22,006 bases of DNA from a virus. The position numbers were made by a program, and so were the translations under genes. How positions within the stretch are numbered: the stretch's first letter is position 1; each line of letters begins with the position of its first letter. Under the pieces are notes generated by a model that saw only the letters and a list, made by a program, of their open reading frames with translations, did not search any database and was not told the origin of the DNA. Positions 8,692 through 21,430 of the stretch are shown here, piece by piece. The stretch lies in IMG/VR virus record IMGVR_UViG_3300048672_000215, positions 1 through 22,006 of that record. One strand, given 5' to 3'.

Positions 8692-8941
8692 CGAGGTGTT
8701 CAATAAGGTTCGTTAATCCTTACCAGCAGCACTACCTGCTTCTGCATGTCGCCATGCAGACCTGACTATATCATCACCCTAATAGGGTGTCTCCCGTTTC
8801 CACTCACTTGAGTGTACGCCTTTCGGCTAGTCGATGAACGTTCTCCGTGAGGAGCTTCGCTGCTGATTGTCTCTGTGAGAGTTCCCAGCAATTAGAGAGA
8901 TTATTCGACACATATTACTACGTGAAGCGACTATTTTACAA
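8692..8941 (-). ncRNA. group I intron in terL Walker B (250 nt, no ORF)
   Basis: Core elements read 5' to 3' on the minus strand: AATTGCTGGGA (P/P4), AATCAGCAGCGAAGC (Q/P6 side), CGACTAG (P7 5' strand), and GATGATATAGTC (S, P7 3' strand, pairing GACTA/TAGTC), followed by a perfect P9-type hairpin TCTGCATG-GCGA-CATGCAGA. The 5' exon ends TTCGAT and pairs with GTCGAA 20-30 nt into the intron (six pairs with the required U.G at the splice site). The intron ends in G. Splicing joins codons GAT and GAA, restoring FDEGTQF. No protein is encoded, so mobility would need an endonuclease in trans. Confidence 0.9.
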
Positions 8942-9241
8942 ATCGAACGCAATGAATGTATATTGCAAGCCTTGGTGATTGTACTTGTCTTTCTCTGTCT
9001 CCATGTGAGACCATTTCATTTTAAAACCAGTAGGAAACTTAGCTTCTAATGAATGCTCTGACATACGAGGACGGAGTTCGGTGGGTAGCTGCATGTACAT
9101 GTTACGTGCAGTATCAAATACACCACCAAGACCTTTGATTTGAACTGTCGTTCTGCGGAATACAATTGCGTTTGCTTTTGGGTCATCTACATAAAGCAAA
9201 GGGAGCATTTGTAATAAGAAACTTTTGCCGGAACCGGCTGC
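8942..9241 (-). CDS. terL: large terminase subunit, exon 2 (ATPase core)
   Basis: One hundred codons in one frame from AAGSGKSFLLQMLPLL to YTFIAFD. It contains the second half of the Walker A P-loop (AAGSGKS), the adenine-motif/C-terminal strand AIVFRRTTVQIKG, and the hydrophobic strand with the first Asp of Walker B. Both ends fall on whole codons at the predicted group I splice sites. Unspliced, the frame would begin at a TTG at 9244 and run into TAA at 8936, giving an inactive 102-aa fragment. The middle exon is meaningful only when joined to the flanking exons. Confidence 0.9.
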
Positions 9242-9483
9242 CAAATATTATGTAGTCGCTACACTACTCTGCCTTTTCAAGCAGGATCGGGTCATATCTT
9301 CATCCCAGAGGGAGTCTACCGTTTCGGATAATCAATCGCTTATTACCCTACGCCCTGACTAGGGCTGACCTCCACACACGCCATTACGCTTGGCTCGGTA
9401 TTAGCATAGAGCGTAGCCCCTTAGCTTTCACCGAATTAGATAGATTCTGAGAGACACATTGCTGTGTTCTGTGGCGCAAGTTC
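9242..9483 (-). ncRNA. group I intron in terL Walker A (242 nt, no ORF)
   Basis: Core on the minus strand: an AAGGGGCT segment (P3 5'), TAATACCGAGCCAAGC (Q), GGTCAGCCCT (P7 5' plus P3 3') and GATGAAGATATGACC (S). P7 pairs GGTCA/TGACC and P3 pairs AGGGGCT/AGCCCT. The exon end GTGGT pairs with GCCAC (U.G at the cut), and TTGC just before it can pair with the 3' exon GCAG as P10. The intron ends in G. Splicing joins GGT to GCA and gives MGGAAGSGKS, a complete P-loop. It differs in sequence from the second terL intron, so it is probably an independent insertion. Confidence 0.88.
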
Positions 9484-9594
9484 ACCACCCATGATTAGAA
9501 TTTGAGCCTTACAGTCAACAATCATTTGTTGCTTTTTAGAAGTAGGACCAAACGGTAATCTTATCTCGCGGGGTTGTTTTTGTTTAGTTGTCAT
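9484..9594 (-). CDS. terL: large terminase subunit, exon 1
   Basis: Thirty-seven codons starting at ATG 9594 (MTTKQKQPREIRLPFGPTSK) and ending ...QILIMGG, the first glycine pair of the Walker A loop. The start is set by an AAGAGGAG ribosome site 5 nt upstream. If not spliced, translation continues 15 codons into the intron and stops, giving a 52-aa product without a P-loop lysine. The segment PFGPTSKKQQMIVDC is the usual Q-motif-like region before the ATPase domain of TerL. Confidence 0.88.
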
Positions 9595-9648: not shown

Positions 9649-10800
9649 CTAATCTGGCGTAATATACTTTAACAATATGTCTAGTACAAGACTGAAGTCT
9701 TTACGGTGGAATGTCTCTGTATAACCAGAACCCATTTCTTGTTTTGTAATTATACCTCTTTCGATACCAGAAGATATAATCTCACTCTCAAGTTTGCGTA
9801 TAACGTACCCATCAGGGTTCTCAAGATAGTATATTACAGACACTGGGTATTTACATTTCTGTTGTATCTGCTTTAATCTTTTATCCAAATTATTCGTTAT
9901 ACCAAATTTCAGCACATCGTCAGTAACTTTCAATAAATAAAAAGTACCTTTTATAGTGCTTCTATAACCAACCTTTTGATTTGAGCATCTAGGGCAACCA
10001 GCAGCATAAAGGTGACTATTAGGTACTTGAGAAAACACACCATGATCTCTGCATATAATGTCTATCTTAGTCTGTTGATTTTTGTAATCAACCAATGAAT
10101 AATCATATTTATCACCATGTACTTTCTTAGCTGATGTTATATATTCTTCTGTCGTAAACTTAAACATTTCTGCTTTAGCTAGTGAAGCACATTTAGGACA
10201 ACCGATTGTAGTTAAATGGTGGTCAGCCCTTTGAGTGACTACACCGTGTAACTCACATTTATATGTGATATACTTACTCTTACCAACATATTCAGTAATA
10301 GAATAGTCGTATTTGTCACCATGAATTTGTTTTGCCTTTTCTACGTATTGCTCTGTGCTGAACATTTGACGTTTAGAACTATTACTTGCTGCGCAAAGTT
10401 TACAACCAACCTTACCCGCTGTGTGTCCTGACAGTTCTTGTCTAAATGTTCCGTGTTCAGGGCAAATAATATCTACAATGTCTTTAACCTTTACGCTGTC
10501 TGGTATAAGACTATAATCATATTTACCATTATGTGCAGATGTTGCTTTGTCAATATAATACTGCCTAGGTTTTCGAGTAGCTTCTGCAATTCTTTCTTTT
10601 GCACAAAGCTTGCAACCTTGTCTAGCTGATGTATGACTGTTTGGGCTAACCTCAAATACAAAGTCGTGCTCAATACACCGAACTTTTACCTTATTACAAG
10701 CTTTAGTGTAAACAGACAAAGAATAATCGTACTTATCTCCGTGAACACTTCTAGCTTTAATAATAAACGTTTCTAAATCTTCTATTTCGTGCTTTGCCAA
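9649..10800 (-). CDS. homing endonuclease: four DUF723-type zinc repeats plus GIY-YIG domain
   Basis: 383 aa. Four repeats of about 65 residues (starting near 10, 75, 145 and 215) each carry the signature VHGDKYDYS or a variant, a C..H knuckle (CIEHDF, CPEHGT, CELHGV, CRDHGV) and a closing CxxC (CKLCA, CKLCA, CPKCA, CPRCS), so each can bind one zinc ion and contact DNA. The C-terminal domain (about 285-383) begins GTFYLLKVTDDVLKFGITNN and continues LDKRLKQIQQK, a GIY-YIG/T5orf172-type nuclease. I place the start at TTG 10800, 9 nt after AAGG; the ATG nearby (10805) is out of frame and stops at once. A structured leader precedes it (separate entry). It probably drives spread of the surrounding insertion. 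Confidence 0.85.
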   Translation of the reverse strand: MAKHEIEDLETFIIKARSVHGDKYDYSLSVYTKACNKVKVRCIEHDFVFEVSPNSHTSARQGCKLCAKERIAEATRKPRQYYIDKATSAHNGKYDYSLIPDSVKVKDIVDIICPEHGTFRQELSGHTAGKVGCKLCAASNSSKRQMFSTEQYVEKAKQIHGDKYDYSITEYVGKSKYITYKCELHGVVTQRADHHLTTIGCPKCASLAKAEMFKFTTEEYITSAKKVHGDKYDYSLVDYKNQQTKIDIICRDHGVFSQVPNSHLYAAGCPRCSNQKVGYRSTIKGTFYLLKVTDDVLKFGITNNLDKRLKQIQQKCKYPVSVIYYLENPDGYVIRKLESEIISSGIERGIITKQEMGSGYTETFHRKDFSLVLDILLKYITPD

Positions 10801-14520: not shown

Positions 14521-14597
14521 TGGCGCACCATACAGGACTCGAACCTGTAACTCTCCGCTTAGAAGACAGATGCTCTATCCATTTGAACTAATGGTGC
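14521..14597 (-). tRNA. tRNA-Arg (anticodon UCU), CCA encoded
   Basis: A full cloverleaf: acceptor GCACCAT/ATGGTGC (7 bp, no mismatch), D stem GTTC/GAGC, anticodon stem TCTGT/GCGGA with loop CTTCTAA giving anticodon UCU, T-arm ACAGG-TTCGAGT-CCTGT, discriminator G and an encoded CCA. It reads AGA codons, rare in many enterobacterial hosts but usable in AT-rich phage genes. Confidence 0.95.
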
Positions 14598-14610
14598 TTT
14601 ATTAATTAGA

Positions 14611-14684
14611 TGGTCCCAGAGGGATTCGAACCCACCTACCTGCCGATTATGAGTCGGTTGCTCATCCATATGAGCTTTGGGGCC
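14611..14684 (-). tRNA. tRNA with CAU anticodon (Met or lysidine-Ile)
   Basis: Acceptor GGCCCCA/TGGGACC with one C.A mismatch at the third pair, D stem GCTC/GAGC, anticodon arm ACCGA-CTCATAA-TCGGC giving CAU, T-arm GTGGG-TTCGAAT-CCCTC with one U.U mismatch, discriminator A, no encoded CCA. CAU can be elongator Met or, after lysidine modification, Ile for AUA codons. The latter is common in AT-rich phages but cannot be decided here. It lies 6 nt after the 75-aa gene, 13 nt before tRNA-Arg. Confidence 0.88.
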
Positions 14685-14690
14685 ATCTAA

Positions 14691-15875: not shown

Positions 15876-16055
15876 TTAATCTTTTGACCACTCGTAATAT
15901 TTGATTACGTCGAAACTAACTAATGGATGGCCAGAGTATTTATTGCAAATACATACACCGTAGTCCACAGCCTCATCCTCGTTTGTGAAGCCATCACTAT
16001 TCATATTAGATAAGTAGCTATCCATAAAAGCTACACGAAAATACATTTTAATCAT
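15876..16055 (-). CDS. small protein, 59 aa
   Basis: ATG at 16055 overlaps the stop of the upstream gene (TAATG), with AAAGGAG placed 7 nt before it. Product MIKMYFRVAFMDSYLSNMNS, then DGFTNEDEAVDYGVCICNKY and SGHPLVSFDVIKYYEWSKD. It has the look of a small compact alpha/beta protein, with DEAVDYGVCI as a central element. No function recognised. It belongs to the transcript of the nucleotidyltransferase-like gene. Confidence 0.7.
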   Translation of the reverse strand: MIKMYFRVAFMDSYLSNMNSDGFTNEDEAVDYGVCICNKYSGHPLVSFDVIKYYEWSKD

Positions 16056-16960
16056 TATTCATCTCCTTTCTTATGAGGTAAAATCTTACCATCATTCAAC
16101 GCTGTTTGAAACTTATTCCAGAAACCTTGTACACGAGAGTAATACAGCTTACAACACAAACCGTAGTGTTCCCAAGCAAACTCTCTAAACCAACCAGAAG
16201 TGATGCTCGTACACACTTTCATCAAGCTATAACGCCACACTTCATGTTCTTTCACTTCTGGATCATCAATAAGAATTAAGCTACGTTCAATAGCCAACAC
16301 CATAGCTTCTTCCAGAACAGCATTGAGCTTTGTATCAAACGATTGCTGTTCAAACAACTTCTTACAGGTTTTAACTTCTCCGACCAGAAAGCTCTTGTAA
16401 GATGGTTCATTCTCAATTGCTACAGCTTCATGGATACTGTCATGATCATAAATATATTCAACACCTTTTGTGTCGAAGAATTCTTCCTTGCTTTTATTCA
16501 AGCTTGGATGATTGTAGTAATACGTTTCTTTCTCACGCTCTATAAACCACTCAGAAAGCTCTGGTGGGATTTTAGCTCCTACCCTACGTAAGTCTTGAAT
16601 ATCTTTCCAAGTCTTCTCAAAATGCGGGCTATTACGTAAAAACCTATGTGACATCTTTAGTGTGTAAGCTAAGTCAATCTTACGCACCCTATTGTTACTT
16701 AAAATAACAAGTAGTTTCTCTGCTGTACTTCCAGCAGTAGCAACTTCAATCTCATGTACTCCGCCTGTAAGCTTAATATAATAAGATTTCCTTACAGGGT
16801 GATTTCCGTCCTTTATTTCAACATTCGAGTAGTAAGCTTCTTTTCTTTCTTTCCACTCACATTCAGTACAAATAATATCATAATCAGAAAAAGAAGCTGG
16901 TTGTCGAACACCACGTACACCTTGTAATAACCAACTACCTACTACTTGATAATCTAACAT
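16055..16960 (-). CDS. nucleotidyltransferase-superfamily-like phage protein
   Basis: 301 aa starting MLDYQVVGSWLLQGVRGVRQ with AAGGAG upstream. Residues 8-30 have the order G-S-x-L-x-(G)...SDYDIICTE, which matches the first part of the nucleotidyltransferase fold (GS helix, then DxD-like DYD). A later strand GGVHEIEVATAGS could supply the third carboxylate. The rest is helical with RKIDLAYTLKMSHRF and many aromatic residues. Similar genes occur in T4- and T5-like phages under the name 'nucleotidyltransferase' without known substrate. The activity is inference. Confidence 0.55.
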   Translation of the reverse strand: MLDYQVVGSWLLQGVRGVRQPASFSDYDIICTECEWKERKEAYYSNVEIKDGNHPVRKSYYIKLTGGVHEIEVATAGSTAEKLLVILSNNRVRKIDLAYTLKMSHRFLRNSPHFEKTWKDIQDLRRVGAKIPPELSEWFIEREKETYYYNHPSLNKSKEEFFDTKGVEYIYDHDSIHEAVAIENEPSYKSFLVGEVKTCKKLFEQQSFDTKLNAVLEEAMVLAIERSLILIDDPEVKEHEVWRYSLMKVCTSITSGWFREFAWEHYGLCCKLYYSRVQGFWNKFQTALNDGKILPHKKGDE

Positions 16961-17733: not shown

Positions 17734-19089
17734 TTAACACTCTGCAACTTTACTTGTAATTCGACAATTATTCCCACCAATTACAAGTTTGTATGCACGT
17801 TCCATATGATACCTCGTGCGTTGCTCTACACTAATCGGAACAATAAACGAATCATGCAGAGGAATAACGATAATGTCATCCATTAACAGAGATTCAAGAA
17901 TGATGTCATTAATCTCACTCTCATAGTTCATATACTTCAACGCATTGCTGGAATCACATTCGTGCATGAGATAACCATTGCGCTCAATAAGCTTTTCAAC
18001 AATAGCATGGACAATCCTCCCTTCAGGCCACATACCTTGTTTCTTTGCCGCTATAATACGTTCTTTCCACTCAGGTTGTGACAGAGTAGAGGCTAGGGCA
18101 TATTGCGCTGACTGCATGTTATCTGTGTTCAGCAACATCAGACAAGCAAGTTTAGCTAAATCCCTGAGCATCTCTTTGTCACAACCATCAATCTCAATTG
18201 CATATGGATCGAAGTTCTCTGGGAACGTAATACCATTCATGTCAGCAATCATGGAAGGGAACATTGACTTATAATCCAATTCAACACATGGTTCTCCATT
18301 AATCGTTATCTTCAGTCTGTTAGTGCGTTTCATCGCCTTACTCGCATCTGAACCAACCATATAATTTCTTCCTCCTAATTCAAATGAACCGTCATTATAT
18401 ATCTTCTTTAACTGGAAATCAAGAAAATCTTCTTCCAAGCAAATGCTACTGGTTTGATATTTGTTATTGATTCTGGTAAGAACAGATACCATGTGTCTCT
18501 GCTTCTCCGTTAATCTCTTACTAACCACCTTACCATCTTTGTTTCTAATCTCAACAACAGACATTGGTCTATCTGTAATAGAGTAGTCAATGTCAAACAT
18601 ATTAACTAAGTCATCAGACAGCTTGTATTGTGTTGTGTGACACTCTCCTTTCAACATAACTACTTCACCTGTCTCGTAGAAATGTTTCTTATCTAACTCC
18701 CAAGAGACACATCCTTTTGACTCATAGCACCAGAAGTAATGTTTGATGAACTCACATAACAGCATAGTATACGTGTAGCTCACTTGTCTCTGAACCTTCT
18801 GTCCGTTATAGATGAGTGGTTGTGAGTATAAGTTCTTATATCTTGGGATAGAGATAGTAGTCTTCTTAAACTTCAACCTAAATGCTACATTAGACACAAA
18901 ACATCCAACAGCGTTAGTAGCTAACTCTCTCTTGTGCTTGGTCAGAGGAACTCTTTCTCTCGTTACCCAGTAACACAAGTCTCCATCCTTTATCTGTTCT
19001 TTAGTCTCTAACCACTCTATGAACTTATCACTAAGCTTATTCCTAATCTTACTTAGTTGTTTATTTACTTTATAATCTAATAAATACAT
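17734..19089 (-). CDS. orphan polymerase-like protein (palm-type motifs A, B and C)
   Basis: 451 aa. The C-terminal half carries three elements in the order of template-dependent polymerases: motif A VELDYKSMFPSMIADMNG (Asp272), a helix RDLAKLACLMLLN (Arg309, Lys313, Asn321) like the fingers motif of family A polymerases, and motif C IVIPLHDSFIVP (His412-Asp413). Spacing A to C is 141 residues. A YESEINDIILESLL helix precedes motif C. The N-terminal 240 residues are basic and have no recognised domain: no 3'-5' exonuclease motifs and no primase zinc site. Proteins with 'VELDYSxLHPxML...HDSF' are scattered in phages and mobile elements. The ATG has GGAGG 12 nt upstream. It could extend or prime DNA; activity is inferred only. 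Confidence 0.6.
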   Translation of the reverse strand: MYLLDYKVNKQLSKIRNKLSDKFIEWLETKEQIKDGDLCYWVTRERVPLTKHKRELATNAVGCFVSNVAFRLKFKKTTISIPRYKNLYSQPLIYNGQKVQRQVSYTYTMLLCEFIKHYFWCYESKGCVSWELDKKHFYETGEVVMLKGECHTTQYKLSDDLVNMFDIDYSITDRPMSVVEIRNKDGKVVSKRLTEKQRHMVSVLTRINNKYQTSSICLEEDFLDFQLKKIYNDGSFELGGRNYMVGSDASKAMKRTNRLKITINGEPCVELDYKSMFPSMIADMNGITFPENFDPYAIEIDGCDKEMLRDLAKLACLMLLNTDNMQSAQYALASTLSQPEWKERIIAAKKQGMWPEGRIVHAIVEKLIERNGYLMHECDSSNALKYMNYESEINDIILESLLMDDIIVIPLHDSFIVPISVEQRTRYHMERAYKLVIGGNNCRITSKVAEC

Positions 19090-19233: not shown

Positions 19234-19437
19234 TTATTCCTCCACAGTAAGGGTAAACGTAATCCCTAAAGCAACCAATAATTCAAATAATTTATCCATA
19301 CTCACGCAGTCTGTTTTAAGCCACTTGTGAATAGCCTGCCTTGATACACCAAGCTGTTTAGCTAAAGCTGTCATGGTAATCTTATTACGTATCATATGTA
19401 CAGCCAGAATCGTTTGCAATTGTTCTTTACTTGTCAT
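19234..19437 (-). CDS. Cro/XRE-type helix-turn-helix regulator
   Basis: 67 aa. The helix-turn-helix is at about residues 20-45: ITMTALAKQLGVSRQAIHKW, with the Q.G.S...I..W spacing of Cro/XRE proteins. The C-terminus (LFELLVALGITFTLTVEE) ends in a beta strand likely used for dimerisation. AGGAGGACATT precedes the ATG. It lies next to the divergent promoter region at 19.8 kb and is the natural candidate for its regulator, though promoter 19484-19457 directly upstream may be its own. Confidence 0.82.
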   Translation of the reverse strand: MTSKEQLQTILAVHMIRNKITMTALAKQLGVSRQAIHKWLKTDCVSMDKLFELLVALGITFTLTVEE

Positions 19438-20101: not shown

Positions 20102-21430
20102 GTGAGTATTAATAAGTTAGTAGCGGAGTATAAAGGAAGTCCTAATAATAGTAAAGGGAAGGATGTTGCTGAAAGTGTGAATGCGCTGATTGACAAACAG
20201 CATGGTTTAAACTTATCCGCATTTGATGCATTGAAGTCTGCATCTTCCCGTGTAATTGACGTTGTTATGTGGGGCGACTCAAACCAATTATTTAACGGAT
20301 TTGGTTTTGATGGCGCATTCAGCGATAAGCTGACAACAACTTATGGCTCATGGGCTTCTCCGATTTACGGCCTAGCTTCAGGCACTCAGCAGCAAGGCGG
20401 CAACGATTACTCCGGCAATGGAGTAATTGGTGCAAACACCGGCGCGCCAACGCAGCTTGCAGGCTTAACTTTGGCGTCCAGAGAGTACGGTTATCTTGCT
20501 TCAGGCACTTTTACCACTGGCGGCAATGGCTTGTCAGTTAAGAATGTGACAGGCGTCAACGTTAACAGCGCATGGCGGTTTCATTACGCATACGGCACGT
20601 TTGATTCTGGCTCTGGCTCATTTAAGGTTGGCATGCGGCGCGGAGATTCTCCATTTAGCACAGTTTTAGACGGCCCAATAATCAATACAAATACTGGTTC
20701 GTTTACTTATCAAGAAACATACCTTGATTTGCCTGCTGCAACTAGAAACTACCCAATAGAAATGAAATGGTATCGGCAAGGTTCAGCCGCCATTACCGCC
20801 CCATTTTTGGGTTACTGGTGTCGTGCTGTGGATATGGAAAAGCTTAGCGGTGTATCTGTTCATACTTTCTATGGCGTTGGTGGCGCGTCTCTCTACGATT
20901 TCTTTTCAACAACAAACGGCTACACACAAGCAGAGCTGACGGCATATTTCGGAAAATTGCGAGAAATGCAAATTGCTAAAGGCTTCACTCCGTTATTTGT
21001 CTGTTACGTAAACAGCGGAATTAACGACAGAAACGAAACATCGGTTCCGAGTTGGGGTTTCCTTGGGTCATCGTCCGCTGATTCTGGCGCTGCGTACTTC
21101 GATAACTTGTGGGCACTGAAAGATCGTATTGAGTCACTATGGATTTCTAATGGGTGGGGCGTAAACGAATTGACTTGGTTGTTTATTCCAAGCCACCCTA
21201 TCACAAACCCTGATGATGCTGAATTAATTACTTACCGTAAAGGCGCTAAAAGGTTATCTAATGACCCTCGTTGTTCATTTGTAAATATCGCAGATCTTAT
21301 TACGTCTAGTCAAATGCTTACTAATGGCTGGTATAATTCCGGAGGCGCTGACACTAACCACCTGACAACCTCTGGATATAATGGCATTACAAACCTAATA
21401 CTCAACTACATAGACTCTCAAGTTAATTAA
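20102..21430 (+). CDS. SGNH/GDSL-hydrolase tail or receptor-binding protein
   Basis: 442 aa from GTG 20102. The N-terminal 50 residues (KDVAESVNALIDKQHGLNLS) look like a phage particle-anchoring helix. The rest is an SGNH hydrolase: block I VVMWGDSN with Ser60, block II glycine in FYGVGGASLYDF (near 261), block III NSGINDRN with Asn308, and block V DTNHLTTSGYNG with Asp417 and His420 as catalytic pair. A beta-sandwich insert (about 120-245) probably binds sugar. Such proteins de-acylate O-antigen or capsule during adsorption. It is on the opposite strand from all other structural genes, has its own promoter and terminator, and is richer in GC (GGCGCGCC at 20441) than its surroundings, suggesting acquisition. 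Confidence 0.75.
   Translation: MSINKLVAEYKGSPNNSKGKDVAESVNALIDKQHGLNLSAFDALKSASSRVIDVVMWGDSNQLFNGFGFDGAFSDKLTTTYGSWASPIYGLASGTQQQGGNDYSGNGVIGANTGAPTQLAGLTLASREYGYLASGTFTTGGNGLSVKNVTGVNVNSAWRFHYAYGTFDSGSGSFKVGMRRGDSPFSTVLDGPIINTNTGSFTYQETYLDLPAATRNYPIEMKWYRQGSAAITAPFLGYWCRAVDMEKLSGVSVHTFYGVGGASLYDFFSTTNGYTQAELTAYFGKLREMQIAKGFTPLFVCYVNSGINDRNETSVPSWGFLGSSSADSGAAYFDNLWALKDRIESLWISNGWGVNELTWLFIPSHPITNPDDAELITYRKGAKRLSNDPRCSFVNIADLITSSQMLTNGWYNSGGADTNHLTTSGYNGITNLILNYIDSQVN

Follow-up and report, generated by a model that had tools for sequence, protein, structure and literature searches.

A probable minimal family A polymerase of the divPolA2 group in an uncultivated phage, with relatives in exchanged phage cassettes and in recombinase-linked bacterial loci

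The 22,006-nucleotide stretch of viral DNA analysed here (the window) encodes a 451-aa protein that belongs to PHROG 4756 and to divPolA2, a group named in 2024 from barbaviruses (Yutin et al. 2024, PMC11348598). The protein is an ordinary member of this published family and, judging from its sequence and predicted structure, it is probably an accessory, proofreading-free DNA polymerase of the divPolA2/TV-Pol type, and possibly a prim-pol. The comparative data raise the value of the finding above that of a bare re-discovery, since they reveal the exchange of whole polymerase cassettes in some phages and a tie between divPolA2 and recombinase-linked polymerases of bacteria. The features of the window on which the argument depends are as follows.

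17734..19089, minus strand: divPolA2-type minimal family A polymerase, 451 aa (phrog_4756, tblastn, AlphaFold2 model, VIA-align)
18580..18933, minus strand: N-terminal domain, residues 53-170, weakly winged-helix-like (profile matches, low-Z VIA-align rows)
18355..18414, minus strand: beta-hairpin, residues 226-245, with invariant Gly240-Arg241 (87/87; aligned on TGR668 of E. coli Pol I)
18250..18282, minus strand: motif A, residues 270-280, with catalytic Asp272 (86/87 and 20/20) and steric-gate Phe277 (Pol I Asp705/Glu710)
18127..18165, minus strand: fingers helix (motif B), residues 309-321, Arg309-x3-Lys313-x7-Asn321 (Pol I Arg754/Lys758)
17836..17865, minus strand: motif C, residues 409-418, with catalytic Asp413 (20/20; Pol I His881-Asp882)
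19234..19437, minus strand: 67-aa Cro/C1-type HTH regulator, immediately upstream of the polymerase gene (HTH_3 E 2.1e-7, above the cut-off)

The open reading frame at 17734-19089 (minus strand) has an ATG start in the open reading frame listing of the window. Its product matched the phrog_4756 profile over 445 residues (1-445) with an E-value of 4.6e-68, and tblastn with the 451-aa protein returned 237 phage records, 188 of them matching over at least 80% of its length, so that a chance or frameshifted reading frame was rejected. An earlier note, made from the letters of this DNA alone, had called the protein an orphan, which cannot be upheld given hundreds of phage copies and further relatives in bacteria; its remark that the protein is small at 451 aa was correct. 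The best tblastn match was to Barbavirus, whose divPolA2 proteins are of the gp036 type (31.5% identity, 96% of length, E 5e-59), and the protein modelled in the 2024 paper (AUR84708, from MG592441) matched the window protein at E 2e-16. The matches listed were annotated as hypothetical proteins, with one labelled 'DNA polymerase' in BFVD. The likeness to divPolA2 comprises homology over the whole protein, the domain plan, the absence of an exonuclease and the occurrence of paralogs in relatives. The window version differs in two ways: it shares no more than about 32% identity with its counterpart in the closest named phage, and it comes from a 22 kb fragment of an uncultivated phage in which the replicase is not in view.

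General libraries do not recognise the family. Neither the single protein nor a 7-row profile drew more than chance matches in sequence searches of Pfam, NCBIfam and the PDB; for Pfam DNA_pol_A (PF00476) the window protein had no match up to E 10, leaving the cut-off unreached, and none of seven family members searched matched up to E 1. An exonuclease domain was found in none of Pfam, NCBIfam and PHROGs, and the domain searches gave no sign of the exonuclease or primase that the earlier note had reported missing. Direct scans of viral contigs with single proteins recovered few relatives. Loci L027-L157 were fetched by a motif C pattern, which means that the conservation of HDS in them is partly by construction, and motif C was therefore counted only on members found by other means.

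The AlphaFold2 model built from 87 rows had a mean pLDDT of 90.3 and a pTM of 0.84. When it was searched against the PDB with Foldseek, family A DNA polymerases ranked first (best E 7.9e-6, probability 1.00). VIA-align gave Z 15.1 to yeast mitochondrial RNA polymerase (rmsd 3.3, 241 aligned), 14.2 to apicoplast DNA polymerase and 13.1 to T7 DNA polymerase; the matches, Pol I included, lie at Z 13-15, where differences of less than 1 were treated as ties, and span about residues 175-450. Since both methods matched the model to family A polymerases, a palm is present in it, and the palm and fingers of family A type proposed in the earlier note, against which a fold lacking a palm would have counted, are borne out. 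The best structural match in BFVD was the Barba31A protein (E 5.5e-39). A family B polymerase was considered, as motif A somewhat resembles DxxSLYPS, and rejected because HD stands at motif C in place of DTD and the fold match is to family A. In the model one helix (195-213) precedes the hairpin, with further helices at the N-terminus, and a Pol-like thumb is not evident; a homologous thumb has been reported absent from divPolA2 (Yutin et al. 2024, PMC11348598).

The three polymerase motifs, VELDYKSMFPS (Asp272), RDLAKLACLMLLN (Arg309, Lys313, Asn321) and IVIPLHDSF (His412-Asp413), are all present in the 451-aa reading frame. Their conservation was counted in two ways. In a 20-row set, comprising the window protein and 19 relatives gathered by similarity rather than by motif, Asp272, Arg309, Lys313, Asp413 and Arg258 were found in 20/20 and Arg241 in 19/20. 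An 87-row alignment, in which members of that type were joined by bacterial and environmental ones and motif C counts are partly by construction, had Arg241, Arg258, Glu270 and Lys313 invariant, with Asp272 in 86/87, Arg309 in 85/87 and Asn321 in 81/87. When the family profile was compared with that of Pol I (E 2e-4), the aligned columns placed Arg241, Asp272, Arg309 and Lys313 on Arg668, Asp705, Arg754 and Lys758, and Gly240-Arg241 on Gly-Arg668; this comparison is not decisive on its own, since one of 40 column-shuffled controls came near the real score (38.3 against 40.6). In a global profile alignment, Phe277 fell on Glu710, Met387 on Gln849 and Asp413 on Asp882, and the motif A and motif C assignments of the earlier note thus agree with Pol I Asp705 and Asp882. 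That the two acidic residues lie together, the second condition set in the earlier note, is supported indirectly by this alignment and by the structural match across the palm. Its statement that the N-terminal 240 residues are unlike known polymerase domains was wrong in part, as the hairpin at 226-245 with Gly240-Arg241 already belongs to the family A core. E. coli PolA and T7 RNA polymerase share the palm and fingers fold and the catalytic residues, whereas the window protein differs from Pol I in having no exonuclease domain and in having HDS instead of HDE at motif C. Since the family has Asn at the position of Pol I Tyr766, and the window protein has Met387 where Pol I and most relatives have Gln, nucleotide selection may be altered.

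We favour, on known family A enzymology and the conserved residues, the use of dNTPs over rNTPs, since the steric gate is bulky (Phe277) where T7 RNA polymerase has Gly. In the protein the palm and fingers of family A hold the residues of a two-metal active site (Asp272, Asp413) and are not joined to any exonuclease; Arg241 of the hairpin would contact the template, Arg309 and Lys313 of the fingers helix would bind the nucleotide, and a winged-helix-like N-terminal domain would take the place of the usual thumb. The computations establish the family, the fold, the conserved active site and the exchange of cassettes in relatives, whereas catalytic activity, the use of dNTPs and a part in replication or repair are inferred. 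It would add dNTPs on a DNA template beside a separate replicase, and may be able to prime. Proofreading is absent and relatives encode their replicase elsewhere, as Barbavirus does with its own genes for a DNA polymerase and a primase, so that the most likely role is an accessory one, in priming, in repair or in synthesis linked to recombination. The authors of the 2024 paper judged divPolA2 not to be a replicase and left a repair polymerase or an RNA polymerase as options (PMC11348598). Among the three options of the earlier note, the minimal polymerase fits best and is already published for divPolA2 (PMC11348598); nothing points to a terminal transferase.

TV-Pol was defined in 2008 by the same catalytic features together with resolvase or integrase neighbours, and was predicted to be a prim-pol (Iyer et al. 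2008, PMC2579912). The window protein shares with TV-Pol the Arg hairpin, the two palm Asp residues, the RxxxK fingers and an extra N-terminal domain, the last described for a subset of TV-Pols (PMC2579912). A thumb of two antiparallel helices is a TV-Pol feature; the window model has one helix before the hairpin and others at the N-terminus. In Ma-LMM01, the one phage record searched among those named for TV-Pol in 2008, the family profile had no match. No resolvase, integrase or D5 helicase gene was recognised next to the window gene. Stand-alone TV-Pols have also been described, which means that linkage to a recombinase or D5 helicase is typical but not strictly required (PMC2579912). CcPol, a TV-Pol, primes de novo with an OB-fold partner (PMC7581432; Rice 2023, PMC10061031). 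A family A palm on a mobile element and small genes nearby are also seen in the biochemically proven primase CcPol-MP, which belongs to SCC elements (Bebel et al. 2020, PMC7581432). In sequence CcPol lies close to Pol I, and it works together with a helicase and an OB-fold SSB, for which no gene was recognised beside that of the window protein.

The N-terminal domain is likely, though unproven, to be winged-helix-like. Residues 53-170 matched PadR/MarR regulator profiles at E 0.06-1, and the N-terminal 196 residues folded alone with a pLDDT of 83.9. Foldseek with this domain alone found nothing significant, and its VIA-align rows, at Z 5.0 or less, included ribosomal eS10, LmrR, TubR, OhrR, PadR and ORC, with several winged-helix folds among them; the null Foldseek result and the low Z-values keep the assignment weak. 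Such a domain would suit an origin-specific initiator or prim-pol, in which it binds a site in the genome while the palm makes the first DNA primer, thereby setting replicon identity. We consider this role unlikely, though a serious candidate. The prim-pol activity predicted for TV-Pols, the de novo priming by CcPol, the weak winged-helix signal and the swapping of whole cassettes between relatives (see below) speak for it. The surroundings of the gene argue the other way: besides unknowns, its neighbours in the window encode HTH, TM2-like and DUF7275 proteins, with no partner SSB or D5-type helicase recognised next to it, and upstream of it the window has only short, scattered repeats, with no iteron array or strong palindrome. 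Barbaviruses, moreover, carry their own primase. A primase or initiator function, if borne out, would place the enzyme among the few family A primases and make it a small model of how a polymerase can start with no primer.

The adjoining regulator was rightly described as Cro-like in the earlier note (19234-19437, HTH_3 E 2.1e-7). In the window, in both ICP1 versions, in Vibrio phage 249E41-1 and in Aeromonas phage 4L372D, a small HTH gene was observed upstream of divPolA2, at a distance of one or two genes; in several others the gene directly upstream was not recognised as HTH. In ICP1 the two versions occupy the same slot after ORF97. Version one consists of an HTH gene, a small ORF, a 494-aa divPolA2, a 142-aa ORF and a Mom-family protein, and version two of a 147-aa ORF, a HigA-type HTH gene and a 434-aa divPolA2, ICP1 2011_A (L002:7080-9299) and ICP1 2001_A (L022:4119-7219) having different cassettes in this slot. 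The flanking proteins are 95-100% identical, whereas the two polymerases are 28% identical over 240 aa. The downstream flank was found in 82 records, 43 with the first version and 39 with the second, with no overlap. The tree puts the two polymerases into separate supported clades, so one has replaced the other rather than drifted in place. Aeromonas phages 2L372D and 4L372D likewise have polymerases that are 28% identical between matched flanking genes of 84-100% identity. The exchange of whole polymerase cassettes in one fixed slot of some phages is new here, and a testable point is that ICP1 has the enzyme as two distantly related alleles that exclude each other, while their surroundings are nearly identical. 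The ICP1 transcriptome paper contains no named data for the divPolA2 gene. The cassette that encodes the enzyme in relatives can be exchanged, and an HTH regulator is often part of it.

This exchange might reflect counter-defence or exclusion, with the enzyme varying with host defences while the HTH gene and neighbours travel along. It is in keeping with the mutually exclusive ICP1 cassettes, one of which carries a DNA-modification gene (that of the Mom-family protein), with the several divPolA2 copies per genome in relatives, and with the avoidance of defence proposed by the 2024 authors for phage polymerase swapping in general (PMC11348598). We nonetheless regard it as improbable, since neither cassette has a known tie to a defence system and the catalytic residues are kept throughout, so that such a role would add to polymerase activity. 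Were it correct, the ICP1 dimorphism would be a natural experiment. A broader proposal, which we hold to be doubtful, would make divPolA2 the winged-helix-guided prim-pol of swappable 'replicon-identity' cassettes that bring along an HTH regulator and have a common ancestry with recombinase-borne elements of bacteria, and whose mutually exclusive fixed-slot alleles would escape defence or incompatibility.

For the preferred accessory polymerase, the wider family was traced in phages of Vibrio, Aeromonas, Shewanella and Klebsiella, in ICP1 and in at least 80 bacterial loci, the bacteria including Pseudomonadota, Thermodesulfobacteriota, Lentisphaerota and others. Within the one family sampled, that of the Agrobacterium locus L033, 30 of 297 genomes had a divPolA2 relative. 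In the tree the window protein, Barbavirus and one IMG/VR contig form one clade (SH-aLRT 99), all 17 phage-isolate sequences group with four IMG/VR rows in one set (support 96), and the bacterial sequences lie mostly on the other side (support 93, under the starred level). A tyrosine or serine recombinase was present within the fetched flanks of 56/79 bacterial loci and was the adjacent gene in 26/79, the two recombinase clusters having been identified from sequence by eye rather than with a curated model. Recombinase density in these loci was 2.13 per 10 kb within 1.5 kb and 0.40-0.71 beyond. The bacterial relatives in this respect resemble the recombinase-linked subset of TV-Pol, which adjoins integrase or resolvase genes, whereas none of the 48 viral loci had an adjacent recombinase. 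That phage divPolA2 and the bacterial recombinase-linked polymerases make up one sequence family is a further testable point. In the 2024 paper TV-Pol appears once, as background, and neither 'integrase' nor 'recombinase' is used in the main text (PMC11348598); the tie between divPolA2 and recombinase-linked bacterial polymerases therefore looks new within the literature searched.

Phages with as many as three divPolA2 paralogs have been described, and the neighbourhoods of these genes vary (PMC11348598). Two divPolA2/TV-Pol-like genes were found per fetched bacterial or IMG/VR locus in L065 (3686-6606), where they are neighbours, L041, L107 and L136. In Vibrio phage VnaP (L024:1658-5023), HNH endonuclease genes lie on both sides of divPolA2 together with annotated pieces of a DNA methylase, which may hint at a homing-type spread.

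An RNA polymerase or other transcription enzyme, the second option left by the 2024 authors, appears very unlikely. Mitochondrial RNA polymerases were the best VIA-align rows, and motif C is HDS as in T7 RNA polymerase; the Z gaps are under 1 and count as ties, however, and DNA polymerases came first in Foldseek. The steric-gate position also differs, being His, Glu, Phe or Trp in 20/20 members, with the Glu of Pol I in four, while the Gly of T7 RNA polymerase (DGSCSG) was never seen among the 20. No N-terminal domain for promoter binding, as in the T7/N4 enzymes, was detected. Least probable is the inactive relative suggested in the earlier note, a reading in which the protein would be retained for DNA binding or as a decoy, for although the family is divergent and has Asn at the Tyr766 position, Asp272, Asp413, Arg309 and Lys313 are kept in 20/20 members found without the motif, at 20-34% identity.

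Several other features of the window were recorded. Its terminase shares 55% identity with the terminases of Barbavirus and of Proteus phage Mydo, and the gene for the large subunit is split by a group I intron (8742-8974, minus strand; RF00028, 86.6 bits). Just upstream lies a second, weaker group I intron match (9268-9493, minus strand; 37.5 bits, under the cut-off), near an ORF at 9649-10800 that is GIY-YIG-like by eye. Tandem tRNA genes for Arg (TCT) and Met (CAT) occupy 14521-14685 (minus strand). The 301-aa DUF7275 protein (16055-16960, minus strand; E 5e-60, phrog_2141, weak DUF7277) has a start that is nucleotidyltransferase-like by eye. On the opposite strand, where gene direction and GC skew turn, a 442-aa protein with no PHROG or Pfam match (20102-21430, plus strand) has parts that by eye are SGNH-type esterase-like.
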